Shown here one piece after another: positions 1 through 11,197 of a stretch of 64,000 bases of DNA; within the stretch, counting starts at the first letter, position 1, and each line of letters opens with the position of its first letter. This stretch comes from Rhizobiaceae bacterium (GTDB taxonomy: Bacteria; Pseudomonadota; Alphaproteobacteria; Rhizobiales; Rhizobiaceae). A program made the translations under genes and the position numbers. A model generated the notes under the pieces. That model was not told the origin of the DNA. It ran no database searches and worked only from the letters and a program-made list of their open reading frames with translations. Location: the NCBI GenBank assembly GCA_017643495.1, contig JAEPNK010000002.1, positions 310,001 through 374,000 of the forward strand, read 5' to 3'.

Positions 1-1340
1 TTCGCACGTTTCAGTTTTGCAACAAACCTGGCCTTGCCGGAAATCAGGTCGGCAATACTCTCTGGACCATTTCCAATATGCTCGTAGTCATATCGCAGAT
101 CTGCAGCTTCACCGATCAGCCCGACAGGATAGTTCCCCATCTTGAAACGTTTCAGAATGCGGCTGTTGAGAACAGCTGCTTCAAGCCTGGGGTTGGAACC
201 GATAATCAGCAATGCATCCGAGTCCTCAATTCCTGCAATTGTGGAATTGAACAGATAGCTTTCACGCCCCTTCACCGGATCCAGGGAACTGGCAGGTGCC
301 CGGCAATCCAGGTTCTCGGAGCCAAGTGAATTGACCAGCTTCTTCAGGGCATACAAATCTTCAACCGAAGACAGTGCTCCCCCGATCGCTCCAATCTTCT
401 CGGGCTTGGTCGCCTTTACCTTTCGGGCGATTGCAGAAAATGCCTCATCCCAACTGGCCGGAACCAGTTTGCGGTTCTTGCGAACATATGGACGATCAAG
501 CCGCTGAGAACGCAAGCCGTCCCAGATGAAACGGGACTTGTCGGAAATCCATTCCTCGTTCACCTCTTCGTGGAGGCGGGGCAATATCCGCATTACTTCA
601 CGTCCACGCGCATCCACACGGATATTGGAGCCTACGGCATCCATCACATCGATCGACTCGGTCTTGCGCAACTCCCAAGGGCGTGCAGTGTCTTGATACG
701 GGCGCGACGTAAGTGCTCCCACAGGACAAAGATCAATCACATTCCCCTGCAATTCGGACGTCATGGCCGTTTCAAGATATGTGGTGATTTCTGCGTCTTC
801 CCCTCGCCCAAGCAATCCCAGTTCCGAAATTCCGGCAACTTCCGTCGTAAAGCGCACACAGCGCGTACAATGGATACAGCGGGTCATCTTGGTTCGTACC
901 AAGGGTCCTATATACTTGTCCTCCACTGCACGCTTGTTTTCAGCAAAACGGTTTTTGTCGACACCATAGGCCATGGCCTGGTCCTGCAAATCACACTCAC
1001 CGCCCTGGTCACATATCGGACAATCCAAAGGATGATTGATAAGCAGAAATTCCATCACCCCTTCTCGTGCTTTTTTCACCATTGGCGATTTGGTCAAGAC
1101 TTCGGGTGGCTCACCATTGGGGCCGGGCCTACAATCGCGAACGCCAAGCGCACAGGATGCCTGGGGCTTGGGCGGCCCGCCTTTTACTTCGACAAGGCAC
1201 ATACGGCAATTGCCGGCAATGGACAGTCTTTCATGGAAGCAGAAACGGGGTATTTCTGCGCCAGCCTCCTCACACGCCTGCAGCAACGTGTAATGATCCG
1301 GCACCTCGACCTCTTTTCCGTCAATGATCAGTTTAGTCAT
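1..1340 (-). CDS. nuoG: NADH-quinone oxidoreductase subunit G, 3' end cut by window edge
   Basis: Large Fe-S subunit of the NADH-oxidising arm of complex I, carrying electrons from the flavin site towards the quinone. The start is the ATG at 1338-1340, giving [20 protein letters not shown]. About 446 residues lie in the window and the frame stays open through base 1, so the C-terminal half is missing. Cluster ligands are visible in order: an N-terminal plant-type [2Fe-2S] set ([15 protein letters not shown] then ASCA), the His/Cys-ligated site [17 protein letters not shown], and the paired motif CIHCTRC with a distal CPVGAL. A molybdopterin-oxidoreductase-like region follows (WDEAF...KIGAIGG). 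It is the last nuo gene seen; nuoH onward should lie beyond the left edge. The preceding gene ends only about 20 bp upstream, so it is co-transcribed. Confidence 0.95.
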
Positions 1341-1361
1341 CTGCAAACCTTTTCACGCAAA

Positions 1362-2060
1362 TCAGCGCGGTTCCTTGCCAAACACTCTTGCATATTCGTC
1401 ACGCCCGCCAACAGCCAGCGCTTTTGCCTGGCCAACCCAGTTGTCGCGTTCAATACGCCCTGAAAAATTCAGGTAGTCGTCTATCCAGTCAATTTCCTTT
1501 TGTGCCCAACCCGCTATCTGGTCAAAGTGGTAGATACCCAAACCGTTCAGCACCCCTTCAAGTTTTGGACCGACACCAGCAATGAGTTTCAGGTCGTCGG
1601 GCTTTCCATCACGTGGTGCGGGAATAACATTTTCAAGCAGATTGGAAACCTCGGGCGTGGAAAATTCGTCCTTTTTACGGTTTTTTTTCTTCTTCGGCGG
1701 ACGCACTGCCTTTGCCCCTGCCACATGTTTGGTGAACTTCCTGACCGCCTTGACCGCTTCCTTGTGACGCTTGTTCACCTTTTCGGATTTTTTGCCCGAA
1801 GCACGCATTGCTTCCATCGTACCCAGCATCATGCCGTACCACAGCCATGGTGCACCAACCGACGAACGGGCCATCATCTGCCCCATGTGCATCCAGTAGG
1901 CAGGATTCGCTGCTTTCACCTGCTCACGGGCAAACTCTTCCATATCCGTCGGGAATGATGGAACCGCATTGTCTGAATAAAGGGCATCCATGTGCGGGAA
2001 AAAATCCCTTGGATCAAAATAGGTCTTGCCCTTGTTTGACGATGTTTTTTTTCTGGCCAT
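1362..2060 (-). CDS. Basic protein with C-terminal HhH-like domain, in nuo operon
   Basis: Protein of 232 residues without a recognised enzyme fold. Residues 1-90 are aromatic- and Met-rich and weakly phasin-like. Residues 90-133 are strongly basic (runs such as PPKKKKNRKK). Residues 155-217 form a helix-hairpin-helix-like domain (DDLKLIAGVGPKLEGVLN ... GRIERDNW), followed by the tail GG..EY.RVFGKEPR. Domain and tail are nearly the same as in the membrane-anchored protein at 3898-4815, and the domain matches the NuoE C-terminus. I chose the ATG at 2060 because AGAGGGAG lies about 7 nt upstream and the start overlaps the previous stop as TGATG, implying coupled translation; a longer frame to 2141 lies inside the upstream gene. 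It sits directly before nuoG. A complex I accessory or assembly role is inferred from position only. Confidence 0.85.
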   Translation of the reverse strand: MARKKTSSNKGKTYFDPRDFFPHMDALYSDNAVPSFPTDMEEFAREQVKAANPAYWMHMGQMMARSSVGAPWLWYGMMLGTMEAMRASGKKSEKVNKRHKEAVKAVRKFTKHVAGAKAVRPPKKKKNRKKDEFSTPEVSNLLENVIPAPRDGKPDDLKLIAGVGPKLEGVLNGLGIYHFDQIAGWAQKEIDWIDDYLNFSGRIERDNWVGQAKALAVGGRDEYARVFGKEPR

Positions 2061-2554
2061 CAAACAACTCCCTCTTGCATTGTCTTTTGCCGGGGTTGTT
2101 GCTGGATTTGCCACAACTTCACACCAGGCAGGTGAGACCATTCAAAGGCGAAGTCGGTATTGCCATGCAGTTCCAGATGGTCGAGGCGCTCCCGTGCTTC
2201 TGTAATCGATGGTTGATGCCCTTCTTCGACATGCCACATGACAAGATGATGACTGTCCAGGGCAGAAAACCAGCGGTTTTTCCCGTTGTAGATGCGTTTG
2301 TGCACGGTGTTCCAGACAAACTGCTCAAGGTCCTCGACCGTTTCCCAGACAGACAACGTCATTTCAGTCAAACGGTCCGGACAGACGGCATTATTGCCTT
2401 CTGAAGTCCGCTGTTCATCTGTCAAGCGCCAAACGAATCCCGGTGAGCGCTCAGCCAACGCGTTTATCCGGCCAACATTTCCCGTAAACCCTTTTGCCTC
2501 TTCACTGGCAGGGTCGATTTTCCATCTGGATATGTTGAGTTCGGCAAGATGCAC
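2060..2554 (-). CDS. DUF3291-family protein in nuo operon
   Basis: Soluble protein of 164 residues matching the DUF3291 pattern: an N-terminal LAELNISRW strand, then WETVEDLEQFVWNTVHKRIY and a W..H..HLVMWHVEEGHQPSITEARERL core. This resembles a dimeric alpha-beta barrel (ABM-like) fold. Members of this fold include monooxygenases and haem-binding proteins, but DUF3291 itself has no assigned reaction that I know of. The start is a GTG overlapping the nuoF stop (TAGTG), and the stop overlaps the next ATG, so it is translationally coupled on both sides. Its place between nuoF and the HhH-like gene suggests co-regulation with complex I; a direct role is unproven. Confidence 0.85.
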   Translation of the reverse strand: MHLAELNISRWKIDPASEEAKGFTGNVGRINALAERSPGFVWRLTDEQRTSEGNNAVCPDRLTEMTLSVWETVEDLEQFVWNTVHKRIYNGKNRWFSALDSHHLVMWHVEEGHQPSITEARERLDHLELHGNTDFAFEWSHLPGVKLWQIQQQPRQKTMQEGVV

Positions 2555-3879
2555 TATTCTGCCGCCTCAAGTTGCTTGTCGGTTACGGCACCATCGCTGG
2601 TGGCACGCATGGAATAACTGTCTATGCGTGCCTCGATTTCATCGCGGAAATGGGTGATCAGCCCCTGGATTGGCCATGCAGCAGCATCCCCAAGCGCGCA
2701 AATCGTGTGTCCTTCCACCTGCTTGGTCACCTCAAGCAGCATGTCGATTTCCTTCTTCTGGGCGCGCCCTTCCGCCATGCGTGTCAGCACACGCCACATC
2801 CAGCCCGTCCCTTCCCGGCATGGTGTGCATTGTCCGCAGGATTCATGCTTGTAGAAATAGGCCAGCCTGGCAATAGCGCGAATAATGTCCGTTTCCCGGT
2901 TCATCACGATGACCGCAGCAGTACCCAGACCGGATTTCAACGCAGAAAGACTGTCAAAATCCATTTTGCAATCAATGATCTGGTCCGATGGTACACAGCG
3001 GACAGATGAACCACCCGGGATAACCGCAAGAAGGTTGTCCCATCCGCCAATAACACCGCCACAATGACGCTCGATCAGTTCGCGGAACGGAATCGACATC
3101 TCTTCTTCAACGGTGCAGGGTCTCTCGACATGGCCGGAAATGCAGAACAGTTTGGTTCCTGCATTCCGTTCTTCACCAAACCCGGCAAACCAGTCCGCAC
3201 CACGACGAAGGATTGTCGGCACGACAGCCACTGATTCTACGTTGTTGACTGTGGTCGGGCAGCCATAAAGGCCCACGTTTGCCGGAAACGGCGGCTTCAA
3301 ACGGGGCTGCCCCTTCTTGCCTTCCAGTGATTCCAGAAGCGCGGTTTCTTCGCCACAGATATAGGCACCGGCACCATGGTGGACGTGAATGTCGTAGTCC
3401 CATCCATGCTTGTTGTTCTTGCCCAGCAGCCCGGCATCATAGCATTCGTCAATGGCTGCCTGCAGGGCTTCACGTTCCCGGATATACTCGCCCCGGACAT
3501 AGATGTAGCAAGTATGTGCATTCATCGCGAAACCGGCGATCAGGCACCCCTCGATCAGCGTATGCGGATCATGGCGCATGATGTCCCGGTCCTTGCAGGT
3601 ACCGGGTTCGGATTCATCAGCATTGATAACAAGATAAGACGGCCTGCCATCTGAGCGCTCGGGCTTTGGCATGAATGACCACTTAAGACCGGTTGGAAAG
3701 CCCGCACCACCACGACCACGAAGTCCGGACGCCTTGACCTGGTCAATGATCCAGTCGGCTCCCTGGTCGATGAACTTTTTCGTATCCGACCAGTGTCCAC
3801 GTTTCATGGCACCCTTGAGCGACTTGTCATAGGTGCCATAAATATTCGTGAAAATCCGGTCCTTGTCTTGCAATGCCAT
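2554..3879 (-). CDS. nuoF: NADH-quinone oxidoreductase subunit F
   Basis: NADH-binding subunit of complex I (441 residues, normal length), holding FMN and the N3 [4Fe-4S] cluster at the tip of the peripheral arm. Visible signatures are the glycine-rich nucleotide site [16 protein letters not shown] near residue 52, the FMN-side motif [13 protein letters not shown], the [19 protein letters not shown] segment, and the cluster ligands [12 protein letters not shown] with the distal Cys in HTICALGD. The start ATG at 3879 is preceded by AGGTAACGAA. The HhH-like membrane protein gene ends about 18 bp upstream, and the DUF3291 gene begins inside its stop codon. The paralogous domain in the formate dehydrogenase subunit at 27083-28783 has the same motifs. 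Confidence 0.97.
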
Positions 3880-3897
3880 TTCGTTACCTGATCGTGT

Positions 3898-4815
3898 TTA
3901 TCGGGGTTTCTTGCCGAATACCTTGATGTATTCCGCCTCTCCCCCCTTGGCGAGTGCCTTGGCTTGTTTGACCCAGTCATCGCGCTCGATGCGTCCCTTG
4001 AATTTCAGCTTGTCATCCACATGGGCAATGTCAGCCTTCTTCCAACTTGCAACCTGCTTGTACTGATAGACGCCAATCTCGTTGAGAACACCTTCCAGTT
4101 TTGGTCCAACACCAGCGATCAGCTTGAGGTCATCCACTTCAGACGGACGTGACGTGAACAACTGGGGACCGGCTGCTTTGGCAGCTGATTTTGCCTTGGT
4201 GGCTTTCTTGGCGCCTGTGGAAGATTTGGAGCTTGCGGCAGCTTTGGCAGGTGTCTTGCCGGCTGAAGCGGTTTTTGTAGCAGACTTCCTTGCCGTAGCC
4301 GAAGATGACTTTGCTGCCGTGGTGCTTTTGGCAGTTGATGTTTTCGCTGACTTGGCTGAAGCGGTCTTCTTCGTGGCAGCAGCTTTCTTGGCTGTGGTTT
4401 TTGCAGTTGTCTTTTTTGCTCCTGATGAACCGGCGCTCGACGTTTTGGCAGATGCACGCTTTGAAGTACTTGCCTTTGCTGAGCTACTGGAAGCCGTGGC
4501 AGCGGATGAACCATCGCTTTTTTCACCTGCATCATCTGACTTGTCTTTGACTGAATCAGATGCGGAAGCCAGTCCTACTGCCGCAGCAGCACTCGAAGCA
4601 CCCGCAGCCATGACGGTATCTGAAACTTCCTTGGCGCCGCAGAAAATCTTGTACAGCAGGTAGGAAACACCCAACAGAACAAGCAGTGCCACGATCAGAA
4701 GCGGGAATGTGCTTAATGAACCACGCAGCACATACCATGCGATTGCCGCTGCAATCACCCCGCATATGATGCACACCGTACGACAGTTTATATTGCTAGA
4801 TACCTGATTACTCAT
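3898..4815 (-). CDS. Membrane-anchored Ala/Lys/Ser-rich protein with C-terminal HhH-like domain, in nuo operon
   Basis: Protein of 305 residues in three parts. Residues 1-60 hold two hydrophobic segments (about 13-31 and 36-56) that should anchor it in the inner membrane. Residues 75-215 are low-complexity Ala/Ser/Lys/Thr, histone-H1-like and probably disordered. Residues 228-290 are the HhH-like domain (VDDLKLIAGVGPKLEGVLN), ending GG..EYIKVFGKKPR. It shares this domain with NuoE, encoded just upstream, and with the protein at 1362-2060. I prefer the ATG at 4815 over the GTG at 4827, because GGAG is well spaced for the ATG and abuts the GTG. Known families do not explain the whole protein. 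One possibility is a tether or assembly factor bringing the NADH module to the membrane; a DNA- or RNA-binding role via the basic linker cannot be excluded. Confidence 0.85.
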   Translation of the reverse strand: MSNQVSSNINCRTVCIICGVIAAAIAWYVLRGSLSTFPLLIVALLVLLGVSYLLYKIFCGAKEVSDTVMAAGASSAAAAVGLASASDSVKDKSDDAGEKSDGSSAATASSSSAKASTSKRASAKTSSAGSSGAKKTTAKTTAKKAAATKKTASAKSAKTSTAKSTTAAKSSSATARKSATKTASAGKTPAKAAASSKSSTGAKKATKAKSAAKAAGPQLFTSRPSEVDDLKLIAGVGPKLEGVLNEIGVYQYKQVASWKKADIAHVDDKLKFKGRIERDDWVKQAKALAKGGEAEYIKVFGKKPR

Positions 4816-4842
4816 TGTTTTCCCCACTCCTGTTTTTTTGGA

Positions 4843-5928
4843 TTACTCTTTTGCCAGCTCTTTTGCCTGTTTCACCCAGTTATCCCGCTCTATGCGCCCT
4901 TTGAAGCGAAGATAACCATCGACCCAGTCCCGTTCGGCCTTTTTCCATTTTGCAATCTGCGCAAACGTGTAAATGCCAAGATCATTCAACACCCCTTCAA
5001 GCTTTGGGCCAACCCCCGAAATTCTCTTGAGGTCATCAGCAGATGCAGGTTTTTGCATTTGCGGTGGCCGGTTCTTGTCATCCAGGCTTGGCGCAGCTGC
5101 TGCCTGGCGTCCTTTCGGGCTATGGGTGCCAGCTTTGGCACGCGCAGCTTTTTCCTTTTGCTGCGCCTCCGCCGACTTGCGCTTGCCAACCGGCGTGTCA
5201 ACGGCCGGTGCCGTAGTCGAGACATGGCTTGCAGGTCTGGCCGGTTTGGTTGCCGAAGACGGCTGCTTCTTGAATTCACTTTTCCCGGCTTTTGATTTGC
5301 GGGCAGTGGACGGCACGATTTCCGTCTGCAGGGTAGTCATGCCACCGGCAGGTGCAGAATAGATGCGGTCGATTTGCGGGCCCGGCTTGATATCATTGCC
5401 ATTGCCGGCTTCAAACGCATCCAGGATCTCTTCCAGTCGTTCTTCTGTCAGGTCTTCATACGTATCTTTTGCAACCATGATCATTGGCGCATTGACACAG
5501 GCTCCCTGGCATTCGACCTCTTCCCATGAAAGGGTCCCTGCCTCGTTCGTTTCAAACTGGCTTTGATTGATGCGCCGCTTGCAAACAGCCATGAGTTTTT
5601 CAGAGCCGCGAAGCATGCAGGGCGTTGTACCACAAACCTGAATGTGGGCACGGCTACCAACCGGCTTCAACATGAACTGGGTATAGAAAGTAGCAACTTC
5701 CAGAACGCGGATATAGGGTATTTCCAGCATTCCGGCGACATGTTCAATAGACGCCTTGGTGACCCAGCCTTCCTGCTCTTGTGCGATCATGAGAAGCGGA
5801 ATAACTGCTGAAGCCTTGCGTTCCTTGGGGTATTTCTTGATCCAGCCTTTGGCAACCGAGCTGTTTTCCCGGTTGAACTTGAAGCTTTCAGGCTGAACGT
5901 TTTCGTCTGCTAGGCGACGGACGGACAT
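4843..5928 (-). CDS. nuoE: NADH-quinone oxidoreductase subunit E with C-terminal extension
   Basis: Thioredoxin-like [2Fe-2S] subunit (N1a cluster) of the NADH module. The conserved core is residues 1-185, with cluster ligands Cys99, Cys104 (VCGTTPC), Cys140 and Cys144 (CQGAC). At 361 residues it is roughly twice the core size. A linker rich in Ser, Lys, Pro and Ala (about 200-297) leads to a HhH-like domain at 298-361 (DDLKRISGVGPKLEGVLN ... GRIERDNW). The same domain ends two other proteins in this operon. Extended NuoE proteins are common in Alphaproteobacteria, so the extension is not a sequencing artefact. The start ATG at 5928 overlaps the stop of the upstream lipoprotein gene (TAATG). 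Confidence 0.95.
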   Translation of the reverse strand: MSVRRLADENVQPESFKFNRENSSVAKGWIKKYPKERKASAVIPLLMIAQEQEGWVTKASIEHVAGMLEIPYIRVLEVATFYTQFMLKPVGSRAHIQVCGTTPCMLRGSEKLMAVCKRRINQSQFETNEAGTLSWEEVECQGACVNAPMIMVAKDTYEDLTEERLEEILDAFEAGNGNDIKPGPQIDRIYSAPAGGMTTLQTEIVPSTARKSKAGKSEFKKQPSSATKPARPASHVSTTAPAVDTPVGKRKSAEAQQKEKAARAKAGTHSPKGRQAAAAPSLDDKNRPPQMQKPASADDLKRISGVGPKLEGVLNDLGIYTFAQIAKWKKAERDWVDGYLRFKGRIERDNWVKQAKELAKE

Positions 5929-6362
5929 TACGGATTCTCCGGGTCAGGAGTCAGAAAACAGGATGAAGAAGCATTGAGAGGTGCTGTTCCCTCTACCCTG
6001 TATCCCTTTTCGGAAATTCTGACGTCTTTTACAATGGTGACGGATTTTGCCGTAACACGGCGACACTGGTTTATCGCTGCGGCGGCTTCAACAACGAACT
6101 TGGTTGTAATACGGCGACCGCGCTGTTTTTCCGGTTCATTCAACCCGCCGAGTGTTTCGGGTGCAAAGAAACGGGCCATCAGTGAACGGTTTTCAATCAT
6201 GTGTGAACAGCGGGCCTGATTTTCCCAGGCACACTGGATATTTCCAGCCGCTGCAAGCTCCAAAGACCGGTATTGGGAATCTGCATCCCCCTGCCCTGCC
6301 CCGGTTGAACTGCATCCGGCCAGCAACAATGCAGCGCCAAAAATATGCAGCAGTTTTCGCAT
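5928..6362 (-). CDS. Small predicted lipoprotein between nuoD and nuoE
   Basis: Precursor of 144 residues with a classical lipoprotein signal: MRKL, a hydrophobic stretch, then the lipobox LLAGC with Cys17 as the lipidation site. The mature part has several Cys (WENQARC, NQCRR, SSSCFL) and no motif I recognise. It overlaps the nuoD stop (TAATG) and the nuoE start (TAATG), so it is locked into the operon's translation. An envelope protein encoded between two cytoplasmic complex I subunits is unexpected. Either it is an unnoticed complex I companion on the periplasmic side, or it only shares expression. Confidence 0.8.
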   Translation of the reverse strand: MRKLLHIFGAALLLAGCSSTGAGQGDADSQYRSLELAAAGNIQCAWENQARCSHMIENRSLMARFFAPETLGGLNEPEKQRGRRITTKFVVEAAAAINQCRRVTAKSVTIVKDVRISEKGYRVEGTAPLNASSSCFLTPDPENP

Positions 6363-7552
6363 TAACGGTCCACCTCGCCAAACACGATATCCAACGACCC
6401 CAACACTGCAGAGACATCAGCAAGCAAGTGTCCCCGGCACATGAAATCCATGGCCTGAAGATGCGCATAACCCGGAGCCCGCAACTTGCAACGATACGGC
6501 TTGTTTGAACCATCCGATACCAAGTACACGCCAAACTCGCCCTTAGGTGCCTCAACCGCACAGTAAGTTTCACCTGCAGGCACATGATAGCCTTCAGTGT
6601 AAAGTTTGAAATGATGGATAATGGCCTCCATCGAACGCTTCATTTCACCCCGTTTAGGCGGGACGACCTTGCCGTCAGAACTCGCGATGGGCCCTTTGCC
6701 GTCTGGCACACGCAGTTTTTTCACGCATTGCTTCATAATGGAAACTGATTGGCGCATTTCTTCCATGCGAATTAGGTAACGGTCATAATTGTCACAATTC
6801 TTGCCAACCGGAATTTCGAATTCCATCTCGTCGTAACATTCGTAAGGCTGGTTACGTCTCAGGTCCCACTCGGCACCGGATCCTCGAACCATGACACCGG
6901 AAAAACCCCATGCCCAGGCATCATCCAGGTTTACAATTCCGATATCCACATTCCGCTGTTTGAAAATGCGGTTGTTGGTAAGCAGCCGGTCAATATCATC
7001 CACCACTTTAAGGAACGGGTCGCACCAGGCTTCAATGTCATCAATCAGGGCATCGGGAAGGTCCTGGTGAACCCCGCCGGGACGGAAATAGGCTGCATGC
7101 ATTCTCGCACCGCATGCCCGTTCATAGAACACCATCAGCTTTTCGCGTTCCTCAAAGCCCCACAAAGGCGGGGTGAGCGCTCCCACATCCATGGCCTGGG
7201 TGGTGACATTCAGAAGGTGTGACAGTATTCGACCGATCTCGGAATAGAGAACACGTATCAATTGCGCACGTCGTGGCACCTCGATATCTGCCAGTTTCTC
7301 CACGGCAAGAGCAAAGGCGTGCTCCTGATTCATCGGCGCCACGTAATCAAGACGGTCGAAATAGGGAACAGCCTGCAGATAGGTTTTGTACTCGATCAGC
7401 TTTTCTGTACCGCGGTGCAACAGGCCAATATGCGGATCGACCCGTTCGACAACCTCGCCGTCCAGTTCAAGAACCAGTCTCAATACGCCGTGCGCTGCGG
7501 GGTGTTGCGGCCCGAAATTGATATTGAAATTTCTTACATTGTGTTCAGTCAC
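6362..7552 (-). CDS. nuoD: NADH-quinone oxidoreductase subunit D
   Basis: 49-kDa subunit of the quinone-reduction module of complex I, related to the large subunit of [NiFe]-hydrogenases. It has 396 residues, usual length. Typical segments are visible: [25 protein letters not shown], with the quinone-site His/Asp region near residue 17; [37 protein letters not shown]; and a C-terminal [11 protein letters not shown] ... DIVFGEVDR. The start is GTG at 7552, overlapping the upstream GFA gene by 4 nt (GTGA), and the stop overlaps the lipoprotein start. NuoC and NuoD are separate genes here, not fused as in Escherichia coli. Confidence 0.97.
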
Positions 7553-7980
7553 TGCCCGCTCTCCCCGGATTCCGAGAACATTGCAAATATTTCCTGCCCC
7601 GTAAGGGTTTTTGTCTGCTGGGAGAATGAATAATTATCGGGTTTTTCGTCGATGAACATTTCCAGCGAAAACGGAAAGCCCGCGCCTTCCCCGAAGAGTT
7701 GCGCATTCACGTGGCACTCACCGGCCCCATCTGCAAGTTGCCATGCAATCAACGTTCCGCACTTGTTGCAAAATACCCGTTCGGCCCATTCAGAAGAACG
7801 GAATGCTGTTGCTCCCTCACCTTCAACGGTAACATTGCTTCCGCAAGCTATGGCCATGTAGGGTCCGGCACTCCACTTGCGACACATTGCACAATGGCAG
7901 GCATCCATGGTCTTGCTGTTGGGGACTGCCGAAACACTTACAGAGCCACACAGGCAGGCACCCTTTATTGTCTCACCCAT
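7549..7980 (-). CDS. GFA/CENP-V-family zinc-binding protein between nuoC and nuoD
   Basis: Protein of 143 residues with the zinc-binding Cys pattern of the GFA (glutathione-dependent formaldehyde-activating)/CENP-V family: GACLCGSV near the N-terminus, [12 protein letters not shown] near residues 27-38, and [12 protein letters not shown] near 70-81. Most members have no proven substrate and the family name should not be read as an activity. The start overlaps the nuoC stop (TGATG) and its stop overlaps the nuoD GTG. This tight insertion between two structural genes of one module suggests a selected link with complex I, for example metal handling. That is inference. Confidence 0.88.
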
Positions 7981-8612
7981 CAGGAACCCGCCTTTTCATC
8001 ACCAGGCAACATGTATTCAACACCCTCCCAGGGGCTTTCATAATCGAAATCCCGGAATTCCTGGCGCAGTTCAACGGGCTCATACACTACCCGTTTGGCC
8101 TTTTCGTCATATCGGACTTCAACATAGCCGGTAAGTGGGAAGTCCTTGCGCAGCGGGTGTCCGTCAAAACCGTAATCGGTCAGAATTCGCCGCAGATCAG
8201 GATGCCCGGTAAACAGGATTCCGTATAAATCATAGGCCTCCCTTTCAAACCAGTCCGCGCCCGGATAAATGCCTGTTACGCTTGGAACCGGCTTGTCTTC
8301 ACTGGTACGCAACTTGATCCGGATACGCTTGTTGTGTTTCGGACTGAGCAAGTGATAGACGACCTCGAAACGTTCCTCGTCGCCCGGATAGTCAACACCA
8401 CAGATATCAATGATTGCAGAAAAGCCTGCCCGGGTATCATCCCGAAGAAAACGCAGCAGGGCAACAACATGCTCCGGCGTGGTAATGACAGTCACCTCCC
8501 CCAACGGCGCATCGACGCTGTTGATGTGATCTCCCATTTCAGCAGACACCAGCCCCATCAGGACAGATTCCGGTGATTGCGGTTTTTCGGTTTCCGTGAC
8601 TTCAGCGCTCAT
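7980..8612 (-). CDS. nuoC: NADH-quinone oxidoreductase subunit C
   Basis: 30-kDa subunit of the complex I peripheral arm (210 residues), a scaffold contacting NuoD and NuoI. The family signature lies near residues 125-160 ([19 protein letters not shown], then [28 protein letters not shown]). The N-terminal half has the usual strand [16 protein letters not shown] ... DICGVDYPG. The nuoB gene ends about 9 bp upstream, and the stop overlaps the following ATG, so it is fully embedded in the operon. Confidence 0.96.
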
Positions 8613-8621
8613 CAGGACTGC

Positions 8622-9197
8622 CTATCGCTCGATTGTTCCGGTCCGCCGGATTTTCTTTTGCAGCAGCATTACGCCATACAACAATGCCTCTGCGGTCGGT
8701 GGGCACCCTGGTACATAAATATCAACAGGCACAACCCGGTCACAGCCACGTACAACAGAGTATGAATAGTGATAATACCCTCCGCCGTTGGCACATGATC
8801 CCATGGAAATCACATAGCGGGGTTCGGGCATCTGGTCGTATACCTTGCGCAACGCAGGTGCCATCTTGTTGGTCAGCGTTCCTGCTACAATCATAACGTC
8901 AGACTGGCGCGGAGACGCTCGGGGAGCAAAGCCGAACCGCTCAGCATCATAACGGGGCATCGACATCTGCATCATTTCAACCGCACAGCAGGCAAGGCCG
9001 AACGTCATCCACATCAATGAGCCTGTGCGCGCCCAGTTAATGAGATCGTCCGTAGAGGTAACGATGAACCCCTTGTCGGCAAGTTCATCATTGATACCGG
9101 TAAAATAGGCATCATCGGAGCCAACCGGCTTACCGGTTCTGGGATCCACGATACCTTTGGGCTGAGGCGCAATCAGGGTAGCGCTTGCATCAGACAT
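8622..9197 (-). CDS. nuoB: NADH-quinone oxidoreductase subunit B
   Basis: PSST subunit (191 residues) that binds the terminal N2 [4Fe-4S] cluster and forms the quinone site with NuoD. Cluster ligands are visible: the tandem cysteines in [12 protein letters not shown], the single Cys in [12 protein letters not shown], and the last in [14 protein letters not shown] chose the ATG at 9197 because GGAG lies 7 nt upstream; the in-frame ATG at 9209 overlaps that GGAG. About 66 bp separate it from nuoA, with no obvious hairpin. Confidence 0.96.
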
Positions 9198-9263
9198 TTG
9201 TTTCTCCATACCGCTTTGGTGTTACAGGACCACCTGCAACCCGGTCAGACAGACGACACTTCA

Positions 9264-9629
9264 TCAATCCCACTCAAGCGCACCTTTTTTCCATTCGTAA
9301 ACAAACCCCACGGTCAGAATTGCGAGGAAAATCATCATGGAAGAAAAACCTACCCACCCAAGATTGCCAAAGCTGACAGCCCACGGGAAAAGAAATGCGA
9401 CTTCCAGATCGAAAATGATGAAGAGGATTGCAACAAGATAAAACCGCACATCAAACTTCATGCGGGAATCATCGAATGCATTGAACCCGCACTCATATGC
9501 CGACAGTTTCTCTGCATCAGGGGCCCGGTATGCCACAAGGAAAGGCGCAACAGCCAAAGCCAGGCCGATAACTATGCACAGTCCAAGAAAAATGATTACC
9601 GGCAGGTATTCCTGAACAACAATTTCCAT
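9264..9629 (-). CDS. nuoA: NADH-quinone oxidoreductase subunit A
   Basis: Small membrane subunit of complex I (121 residues, three transmembrane helices) next to the quinone entry path. Recognisable features are the first helix [20 protein letters not shown], the conserved loop [42 protein letters not shown], and the third helix ending [12 protein letters not shown]. It is the first gene of the operon, with about 220 bp of non-coding DNA before the tRNA genes. Confidence 0.96.
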
Positions 9630-9652
9630 TTTGCAGCCTTTCGGTTCCGTTC

Positions 9653-9680
9653 ATTATGCCGGAATTGTCCAATTATTCAA
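9653..9680 (-). promoter_or_regulatory. Candidate housekeeping promoter for the nuo operon
   Basis: Reading the minus strand, TTGAAT (plus 9675-9680) is followed after 16 nt by CATAAT (plus 9653-9658), about 23 nt before the nuoA ATG. Both hexamers are imperfect. A second AT-rich site (TATATT, around 9717-9722) lies further upstream, so the true start may differ. Confidence 0.35.
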
Positions 9681-9795
9681 TAAACGGGGTAACGCAACCA
9701 CCCCTGTTAAGCAAGTAATATAGCGCCCGAAAGCCTTCACAGAAACCGGGCCTCATTCACATACAGAATAATTTGCCTTTTCGCGATTATCGCGC

Positions 9796-9822
9796 TTGAC
9801 TTGTTGTACCTGAAACCTTAAT
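9796..9822 (+). promoter_or_regulatory. Candidate promoter for the tRNA-Asp/tRNA-Val genes
   Basis: TTGACT at 9796-9801 is a strong -35-like hexamer; CTTAAT at 9817-9822 is a plausible -10 with a 15-nt spacer, about 30 nt before the mature tRNA-Asp 5' end. No other promoter-like pair lies between the two tRNA genes, so they may be co-transcribed. Confidence 0.4.
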
Positions 9823-9852
9823 CCATCCGTCAGTCTGCAGGTTCGCAGATGC

Positions 9853-9929
9853 GCGGGTGTAGCTCAGTTGGTTAGAGTACCGGCCTGTCACGCCGGGGGT
9901 CGCGAGTTCAAGTCTCGTCACTCGCGCCA
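9853..9929 (+). tRNA. tRNA-Asp (anticodon GTC)
   Basis: The cloverleaf folds by eye. The acceptor stem GCGGGTG pairs with CACTCGC (one G-T). The D arm is GCTC-AGTTGGTTA-GAGT, the anticodon stem CCGGC/GCCGG holds loop CTGTCAC with anticodon GTC, and the T arm is GCGAG-TTCAAGT-CTCGT. The discriminator is G and CCA is encoded. No intron or insertion. Confidence 0.97.
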
Positions 9930-9998
9930 CTTATCGAAAAACTGTCTTTATGGGCAGGTTCTCGAAAGTGGCAATGGTTATCAGCATTGCTGATATAA

Positions 9999-10074
9999 GG
10001 GCGTTTAGCTCAGCTGGGAGAGCAACTCGTTTACACCGAGTAGGTCGGCAGTTCGATCCTGTCAACGCCCACCA
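9999..10074 (+). tRNA. tRNA-Val (anticodon TAC)
   Basis: The acceptor stem GGGCGTT pairs with AACGCCC. The anticodon stem ACTCG/CGAGT holds loop TTTACAC with anticodon TAC. The T loop is TTCGATC, the discriminator is A, and CCA is encoded. It lies 69 bp after tRNA-Asp on the same strand. Confidence 0.97.
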
Positions 10075-10153
10075 TTCCCTTCCCGAATTATCCCGGTTCC
10101 GGATCAATAACCGTTGTGCGGGAAGTCGTGGGATTCAAATCACAATTCGGGAA

Positions 10154-11197
10154 TCAGACATCATCGCCATCGAACATCTGGACAATGTTTCCATGTCCAA
10201 CCTTGTCTTCAAACTCGTTTGGATGAATGAAATCAGCACCAAACCATGGATATTCGGATGCATCGAATGCTTCCTTGATCCACGCAATGACTTTTCTGTG
10301 GTGCAATGATTTGGTTGTTTCCCTGTTGTGCACCAGAAAGACATCGCGGCGAATGTGGTAATCATCACAAACGGGAATCAGGCGCTTTGTCAGTGCCCGG
10401 GCATACGTTGGCAGGGGACCGATCCCCGCCCCCCTGGAAATCGCATACGCATGGGCACTGCTCGTATTCATTCGCATGGATACGGGATTATTGCTGAACC
10501 GCGAAATGGTATCGATGTAACGGCTGGCATCCACCTGGTCGGATTTCTGCTCTATCAGGTGAAAGTTGGGCAAATCCTGCAACGTTTCCGGCAAACCGTG
10601 TTCGTTGGCATAGCTGTTCGAGGCAAACAACATGATGTGCAGATAGCCAATACGCGAAACGATAAGGTTTTCGTCCTCCGGATATTCAAGTTGGACAGCA
10701 ATATCTGCACCGTAGTCCGACAGGTTGGCCGGCTTCATCTGGCACTGGAAATCAAGGAAGATATCCGGATGGCCCTGATTGAACTCGACAAGCCTTGGCA
10801 TCAGCCAGAATGTACCAAGCCCTTCGGTTACAACGACAGAGGAAGTTTTCTTTTTCTGCCGCATCTGCTGGTTTATGAAACCGAGAACATTGGATGATTC
10901 TTCAACAAACCCTTCTGCCGAACGCAAAAGCGCCCTGCCCTGGTCGGTAAGCGATGTACCTGAATTGTCACGAAGGAACAGCTCGTGGCCTGTCTGCTGC
11001 TCAAGAATCTGCAACCGTCGGTTTATATACGCATGGCCCTTGGAAAGCGCTTGTGCAGCTTTCCGCGCACTACCATGCCGGGCGACCTCCACAAATATCT
11101 GGATGTCATCAAGCCGGATGCTCGAACTTTTCTCTTCGGGCTCGTGTCTCCGGGTTGAGCCACCCTGACTCTCTTTTCGTTGCACCTCTTTCCCCAT
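10154..11197 (-). CDS. LysR-family transcriptional regulator
   Basis: Regulator of 347 residues. Residues about 27-85 form the LysR winged helix-turn-helix (IRLDDIQIFVEVARHGSARKAAQALSKGHAYINRRLQILEQQTGHELFLRD). An effector-binding domain follows from about residue 115 (SSVVVTEGLGTFWLMPRLVEFNQGHPDIFLDF). Length is slightly above the usual 300 because of a hydrophilic N-terminal lead of about 26 residues. The ATG at 11197 lacks a clear ribosome site, and a GTG at codon 5 is a possible alternative. It is divergent from the tandem-GNAT gene, with 54 bp between them containing a palindrome, so that gene is its most likely target. The effector is unknown. Confidence 0.92.
   Translation of the reverse strand: MGKEVQRKESQGGSTRRHEPEEKSSSIRLDDIQIFVEVARHGSARKAAQALSKGHAYINRRLQILEQQTGHELFLRDNSGTSLTDQGRALLRSAEGFVEESSNVLGFINQQMRQKKKTSSVVVTEGLGTFWLMPRLVEFNQGHPDIFLDFQCQMKPANLSDYGADIAVQLEYPEDENLIVSRIGYLHIMLFASNSYANEHGLPETLQDLPNFHLIEQKSDQVDASRYIDTISRFSNNPVSMRMNTSSAHAYAISRGAGIGPLPTYARALTKRLIPVCDDYHIRRDVFLVHNRETTKSLHHRKVIAWIKEAFDASEYPWFGADFIHPNEFEDKVGHGNIVQMFDGDDV

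Follow-up and report, generated by a model that had tools for sequence, protein, structure and literature searches.

Between nuoE and nuoF, two genes of the complex I (nuo) operon, a Rhizobiaceae bacterium (NCBI GenBank assembly GCA_017643495.1) carries a gene, here called X, whose product belongs with protein-O, judged by its slot nuoE-X-nuoF, its N-terminal hairpin, the spacing of its cysteines, its linker and its C-terminal domain. Protein-O is a subunit of the photosynthetic reaction centre–light-harvesting complex 1 (RC-LH1) of Dinoroseobacter shibae and was found in 2025 (PMC12079452). The kinship of the two proteins is what is new in our analysis of a stretch of 64,000 nucleotides (contig JAEPNK010000002.1, positions 310,001 to 374,000; “the window”); it had been missed by the first-pass annotation of this DNA. 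The C-terminal domain, which is of the helix-hairpin-helix (HhH) type, is shared by X with NuoE and with Y, a basic protein encoded between nuoF and nuoG. In our preferred reading, to which we assign a probability of roughly 0.4, X would be a nuo-operon member of the protein-O family and the HhH domain a nucleic-acid tether for complex I and other carriers. The features concerned are the following (window coordinates; aa, amino acids):

4843..5928, minus strand: nuoE, 361 aa; [2Fe-2S] thioredoxin-like subunit, Ala/Lys/Pro-rich linker of ~100 aa and C-terminal HhH domain, no tail
4846..5061, minus strand: HhH C-terminal domain of NuoE, residues 290-361
3898..4815, minus strand: gene X, 305 aa, between nuoE and nuoF, assigned to the protein-O family
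4624..4815, minus strand: predicted two-helix transmembrane hairpin of X, residues 1-64, with Cys11, Cys15 and Cys59
4156..4623, minus strand: low-complexity Ala/Lys/Ser/Thr linker of X, net charge +13 in the 60 aa preceding the domain
3901..4155, minus strand: HhH C-terminal domain of X with tail, residues 221-305
2554..3879, minus strand: nuoF, 441 aa
1362..2060, minus strand: gene Y, 232 aa, basic protein between nuoF and nuoG
1365..1622, minus strand: HhH C-terminal domain of Y with tail, residues 147-232

Kinship of X with protein-O

According to its description (PMC12079452), the protein-O gene of D. shibae likewise sits between nuoE and nuoF, and the protein begins with a helix-turn-helix, that is, a two-helix hairpin, with a Cys10-Cys59 disulfide, followed by a long loop. 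The C-terminal domain is absent from the map and is stated there to resemble those of NuoE and others; the same text gives the function of protein-O as unknown and suggests that it may take part in the assembly of RC-LH1. Solved chains matched by X are chain O of this D. shibae complex (8yy9_O, E 7.4e-23) and 9wqv_a, deposited as “41 kd complex i subunit” (E 3.7e-22). Its N-terminal hairpin has a hydropathy of 2.49, and AlphaFold2 places helices at residues 8-32 and 36-63 with a predicted local distance difference test (pLDDT) value of 70.9; Foldseek returned no match for this hairpin at E<=0.001. Cys11, Cys15 and Cys59 of the window X stand in columns of the protein-O family, Cys11 and Cys59 being aligned with the disulfide pair.

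Protein-O (PDB 8YY9, 8YZ2, 9JPB) and X are alike in their slot, in a hairpin with cysteines near both ends, in a long linker and in a homologous C-terminal domain. Unlike its D. shibae counterpart, X has a domain whose closest neighbours in the tree are NuoE copies from the window's family, it ends in a VFGKKPR tail, and its genome is without a reaction centre match. The disulfide and any complex, described for D. shibae protein-O, are putative for X. The hairpin itself speaks partly against the assignment. The pattern C-x3-C-x36-48-C is kept in 28/84 non-NuoE domain proteins, fragments and second proteins of a locus included, and, with a hairpin model built without the window, X reaches 21.6 bits while two unrelated membrane proteins score 22.5 and 22.6 bits and, thus, not below it. 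Because the hairpin-only score is unspecific, the profile being weak near 22 bits, the case for homology of X and protein-O has to be made from slot, cysteines and domain in combination.

Among 346 genomes of the window's family, a hairpin model that includes the window gave five hits at E<=1e-4; two of these were false, and the others were the window itself and a pair of genus mates. In these genus mates (G588 and G736), X is present with the same slot and cysteines, and the gene is open; the nuo locus of a further genus mate (G010) is without X. Hairpin hits in G688 and G635 were rejected as X, these proteins being a cytosine/purine permease and MotA. Among 240 genomes of the class, three had the hairpin at 1e-5, namely that of the window, whose X forms row 1 of the model, and two from one family (f24), which we equate with that of Phaeobacter sp. 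J2-8 because G379 and G163 have the same match coordinates. Given these few hits in the class and family panels, X looks rare beyond the Rhodobacteraceae, and a horizontal gain of X by the window's genus is plausible.

The HhH domain, its carriers and its history

Homology of the C-terminal domains of NuoE, X and Y, which the first-pass annotation had claimed, is beyond doubt. In the alignment, X is 61% and NuoE 64% identical to Y, and pairwise BLASTP gives 64% over 83 aa for X and Y (E 3e-35), 69% over 71 aa for Y and NuoE (E 2e-29), and 46% over 157 aa, linker included, for X and NuoE (E 1e-33). The domain is ~72 residues long, with an optional extra tail of 14 residues (GG..EY..VFGK.PR) that is common to X and Y, as already described in the earlier annotation, and is missing from the window NuoE; NuoE of several relatives does end in it. 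A predicted structure, modelled from 38 rows, is all-helical (pLDDT 83.5), and the alignment of these rows has eight invariant columns and a further 12 that hardly vary. We take the G-[VI]-G-P hairpin of the domain to be the classic HhH form. By domain profile, the closest PDB chains are 9wqv_a (E 2.4e-39) and 8yy9_O (E 5.5e-39), followed by eL32 (2.3e-4), topoisomerase V (0.003) and RadA (0.02). Foldseek gave no match for the domain model at E<=0.001; among the best 50 of its 78 weak matches, a trypanosome mitoribosome assembly chain came first, and RadA, DNA polymerases, the RNA polymerase alpha C-terminal domain and NusA were also present. The NuoE of Paracoccus denitrificans complex I (8QBY, 239 aa) aligns to residues 4-201 of the window NuoE only.

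No Pfam family lies above its cut-off for the domain in NuoE, X and Y, where HHH and HHH_5 stay below it; the L21 and membrane-protein copies of the same genome pass HHH_5 with 28.3 and 30.2 bits (cut-off 27). NCBIfam models containing the domain are those for NuoE (NF009040), ribosomal protein L21 (NF008915/NF008916), ribosomal protein S2 (NF008966) and the phasin PhaH (NF045508). The window NuoE is assigned to NF009040 (521.5 bits vs a cut-off of 514), and its match to this model of NuoE with C-terminal extension (NF009040/PRK12373) stops at position 386/400, the tail missing. The L21, S2 and PhaH models match all three window domains, each below its cut-off. L21 and S2 with C-terminal extension (NF008916, NF008966) share the domain with the window three, but are other proteins in their N-terminal parts and are located outside the nuo operon. 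In Caulobacter PhaH, the C-terminal HhH domain is homologous to that of the window three, the model covering linker and domain in NuoE, X and Y at E 7.5e-19 to 9.5e-20; the whole-protein scores of 68.8-71.7 bits are far below the cut-off of 250. At E<=1e-30, the PhaH model found no match in 142 genomes of the class, and among the controls only Caulobacter matched.

In the genome of the window, seven domain copies were found at E<=0.01, carried by NuoE, X, Y, S2, L21 and, with two copies, one membrane-anchored protein. S2 (L004, C11:126933) and L21 (L007, C10:324429) both end in the domain and are above the cut-offs of the NCBIfam extension models, which bears out, together with the models themselves, the earlier statement that the domain occurs on NuoE and L21. 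The gene of the two-copy protein (L005/L006, C10:1902106-1902633) adjoins an OmpA-family gene. A peptide-type ABC transporter ATPase of genus mate G010 (L031, 1-1758) ends in linker, domain and NuoE-type tail, and L028 resembles it by reading of the sequence. At least one domain copy is present in 57/61 genomes of the window's family, own genome counted, and at E<=1e-8 in 21/240 genomes of the class panel.

Within the nuo operons of the window's family (57 panel loci, window left out), NuoE has the domain in 46/57, a domain protein lies between nuoF and nuoG in 31/57, and between nuoE and nuoF in 0/57. Protein-O-like loci were taken as the best 80 of 559 stretches from a scan of named genomes; nearly all are titled Rhodobacteraceae or genera thereof, and a few only Alphaproteobacteria or Rhodobacterales. 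Among the 73 of these Rhodobacteraceae-type loci with both nuoE and nuoF seen, a domain protein lies between the two genes in 67/73 and NuoE has the domain in 64/73, fractions that are not frequencies because the loci were picked by similarity to the query. Two domain proteins between nuoE and nuoF occur in 8/73 (L116, L117, L119, L125, L134, L142, L172, L173), the second mostly with a different N-terminus. None of the 70 Rhodobacteraceae-type loci with nuoF and nuoG has a domain protein between these genes. A lack of conservation of the two genes in nuo operons of related species was among what the first-pass annotation had named as speaking against its proposal, next to a failure of the proteins to co-purify with complex I; as regards the genes, linkage to nuo operons beyond this genome was found for both slots, although X itself is patchy near home, where it is known from two genus mates.

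For Y, a pattern search showed that 20 of the 31 nuoF-nuoG domain proteins of the window's family have a hydrophobic motif at the N-terminus, and the window Y fits the model of this motif weakly (6.3 bits, best stretch). Its N-terminal part has no Pfam family above cut-off. A classification of Y as phasin was rejected, only the C-terminal part of the PhaH model being matched and no other phasin family.

The history of the domain was followed in a weakly resolved, midpoint-rooted tree (82 columns, 73 rows), for which 16 genomes of one family and 12 of the other were drawn at random and 17 named rows added; neither the tree nor the identity counts include stretches of less than ~60 residues or any second domain protein of a locus (11 rows). 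The window NuoE and X domains group with NuoE of the window's own family (91/78), and the window Y and G588 Y domains group together (99/88), while both domains, NuoE and X, from G588 and G736 fall with Rhodobacteraceae rows (98/85), as does NuoE from two more genomes of the window's family (L037, L039). NuoE, X and Y of the window do not come out as a single clade in the best tree. The proposal that duplication inside the operon had produced their domains is weak and supported only in part: the corresponding constraint, at a log-likelihood 29.8 lower, is not rejected by the approximately unbiased (AU) test (p=0.149), but a single clade of all 19 X-slot domains is rejected (AU p=2e-5). The values for Rhodobacteraceae X alone and Rhodobacteraceae NuoE alone as clades are p=0.094 and p=0.071. 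NuoE-X domain identity within a genome is 85-90% in G588 and G736 and 62% in the window. Since the X-slot domains are not one clade, the domain seems to have been exchanged or homogenised within lineages rather than spread by one copying event, and simple duplication inside the window's operon is not the best account, though it may still apply to the three window domains.

As a further alternative, the domain could be a tail that moves or fuses easily and does little for most of its carriers, having been spread within lineages by neutral fusion and exchange. The diversity of carriers (S2, L21, NuoE, an ABC ATPase, membrane proteins) and the scattered X-slot domains point this way, as do the Y-slot protein of G588, whose N-terminus is unlike that of the window Y while domain and tail are the same, and the nuo locus of a genus mate (L037) from which X is absent. 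However, neutral drift sits badly with the invariant and nearly invariant columns of the domain and with its retention by NuoE in most loci of both groups, and we consider this explanation improbable.

Gene order and neighbouring genes

Along the direction of transcription, the order is nuoD, lipoprotein, nuoE, X, nuoF, DUF3291, Y, nuoG. The remaining genes of this block are:

5928..6362, minus strand: small lipoprotein gene between nuoD and nuoE, with a similar gene in three genus mates
2060..2554, minus strand: DUF3291 protein between nuoF and gene Y (PF11695, E 3.7e-40)
3..1346, minus strand: nuoG, first part of the gene, named by reading of the sequence and continuing past the window edge

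NuoE, X and Y are all encoded on the minus strand, and a plus-strand reading of the X and Y coordinates is interrupted by stops. The gaps amount to 27 base pairs (bp) between nuoE and X, 18 bp between X and nuoF, and 15 bp between Y and the listed nuoG frame; one base is overlapped at nuoF/DUF3291 and likewise at DUF3291/Y. Judged by this packing, the block from nuoE to nuoG is likely one transcript. A consensus scan of 1000-10200 gave four promoter-like sites vs a shuffled mean of 7.1, with a single one on the coding strand within the block (2417-2390), and 19 terminator-like sites vs a shuffled mean of 10.1, of which the coding strand from nuoE to nuoG has two, both in nuoF (3652-3637 and 3069-3057). 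By hand count, DUF3291 genes also lie downstream of nuoF in 20 of the 80 best-matching protein-O-like loci. A glutathione-dependent formaldehyde-activating-like (GFA) gene (7549-7980) adjoins nuoD, and GFA-like genes precede nuoD in a number of relatives, too.

Photosynthesis, protein scaffold or nucleic-acid tether

The presence of protein-O in the RC-LH1 of D. shibae, as described (PMC12079452), together with reaction centre genes in 25 of the 49 genomes searched among the 80 protein-O-like loci, every one of the 25 encoding a domain protein in the nuoE-nuoF slot, would be in line with X being a photosynthesis subunit that is kept by chance in the nuo operon, the window copy being a phototrophic relic. 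We regard this as very improbable. In the same similarity-picked set, 21/24 non-phototrophs also have such a gene; the own genome of the window (99.99% complete) has no match to the reaction centre family PF00124, and two genus mates keep an open X. A panel of 120 Rhodobacteraceae genomes was drawn evenly from the family to which Phaeobacter sp. J2-8 belongs; 82 of them have the X hairpin (E<=0.01) and 47 have PF00124. The hairpin is present in 34/47 genomes with and 48/73 without PF00124 (Fisher p=0.55) and, counted also at stricter cut-offs because of the weak hairpin profile, in 30/47 vs 40/73 at 1e-5 (p=0.35) and 24/47 vs 35/73 at 1e-8 (p=0.85). Association is, thus, absent at all three cut-offs, in statistics that ignore kinship and in which weak hairpin hits may be false and true members may be missed. 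With the hairpin being as common without as with a reaction centre, protein-O is probably not photosynthesis-specific, which suggests that its ordinary job lies elsewhere. Among the matches listed in searches of open-licence papers, no title or abstract opening ties protein-O to non-phototrophs. As a side observation, NuoE is without the domain in 6/25 phototrophs vs 1/24 non-phototrophs of the similarity-picked set; the six phototroph loci are L095-L098, L107 and L156, four of which are Rhodovulum.

In our preferred reading, the two-helix hairpin would anchor X in the membrane, with a long flexible cytosolic linker bearing the HhH domain; a copy of this domain would be displayed by NuoE on the NADH module of complex I and by Y behind a third kind of N-terminus. 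Most likely, the domain would serve as a tether that binds nucleic acid weakly and without specificity, like the related domain of PhaH by report, and it would hold complex I near the nucleoid or ribosomes, other carriers (S2, L21, ABC transporters and, in phototrophs, RC-LH1) being held likewise. PhaH is the only carrier for which a stated activity was found: according to a review, its C-terminus binds DNA non-specifically, relying on the HhH domain (PMC13052382). The ribosomal carriers S2 and L21 fit a nucleic-acid role, too, and the window linkers are basic (+13, +13, +7). On the same side we count the solved sequences that come next by profile after 9wqv_a and 8yy9_O, namely eL32, topoisomerase V and RadA.

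Several observations weigh against nucleic-acid binding. Mean domain charges are -1.5 (non-NuoE) and -2.2 (NuoE) in the Rhodobacteraceae and -1.7 and +1.8 in the window's family, the window Y domain has a net charge of -2, and the linkers of both families, with mean charges of -2.4, +0.5, +1.7 and +1.8, are not consistently basic. Conserved columns beyond the hairpin, including tryptophans and arginines, also fit a protein partner. HhH repeats of NusA bind protein, and NusA is a weak profile match to the domain (E 0.37). To this have to be added the missing Foldseek match and the fact that D. shibae protein-O, by its published description (PMC12079452), is really present in RC-LH1.

The inconsistent charges and the conserved columns outside the hairpin lend weight to a protein scaffold, in which the HhH domains would bind each other or one protein partner, and no nucleic acid, and would thereby bring complex I subunits together at the membrane while the enzyme is being assembled, or connect complex I with other complexes. 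Several domain copies per operon in two families are consistent with it, as is domain identity between NuoE and X in the Rhodobacteraceae, which is slightly higher within than between genomes (0.698 vs 0.673; 0/5000 permutations, n=58). However, this small effect may equally be due to kinship, gene conversion between neighbours or shared composition, no within-genome excess is seen for NuoE and Y in the window's family (949/5000 permutations, n=24), and the DNA binding reported for PhaH (PMC13052382) stands against it. A scaffold is a serious though doubtful possibility. Given that PhaH, the ribosomal carriers and the basic window linkers are set against inconsistent charges, the nucleic-acid tether is placed only just ahead of the scaffold, and a role in photosynthesis only comes last. 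Rather unlikely, in our view, is a combination in which X/protein-O, as a membrane-anchored partner, shares a docking domain with NuoE and gathers complex I and, in phototrophs, RC-LH1 at one site, be it the nucleoid or the ribosomes.

If the latter were true, protein-O would primarily organise respiration, and phototrophs would have built it into their reaction centre as well. With the family as common in non-phototrophs of the panel, its slot in the complex I operon and its domain on NuoE itself, protein-O probably works for the respiratory chain or in the general organisation of the cell. The question of what protein-O does, thereby, becomes testable in easily grown non-photosynthetic bacteria, and the domain is one small module that complex I has in common with ribosomal proteins, with a transporter ATPase and with storage granules.

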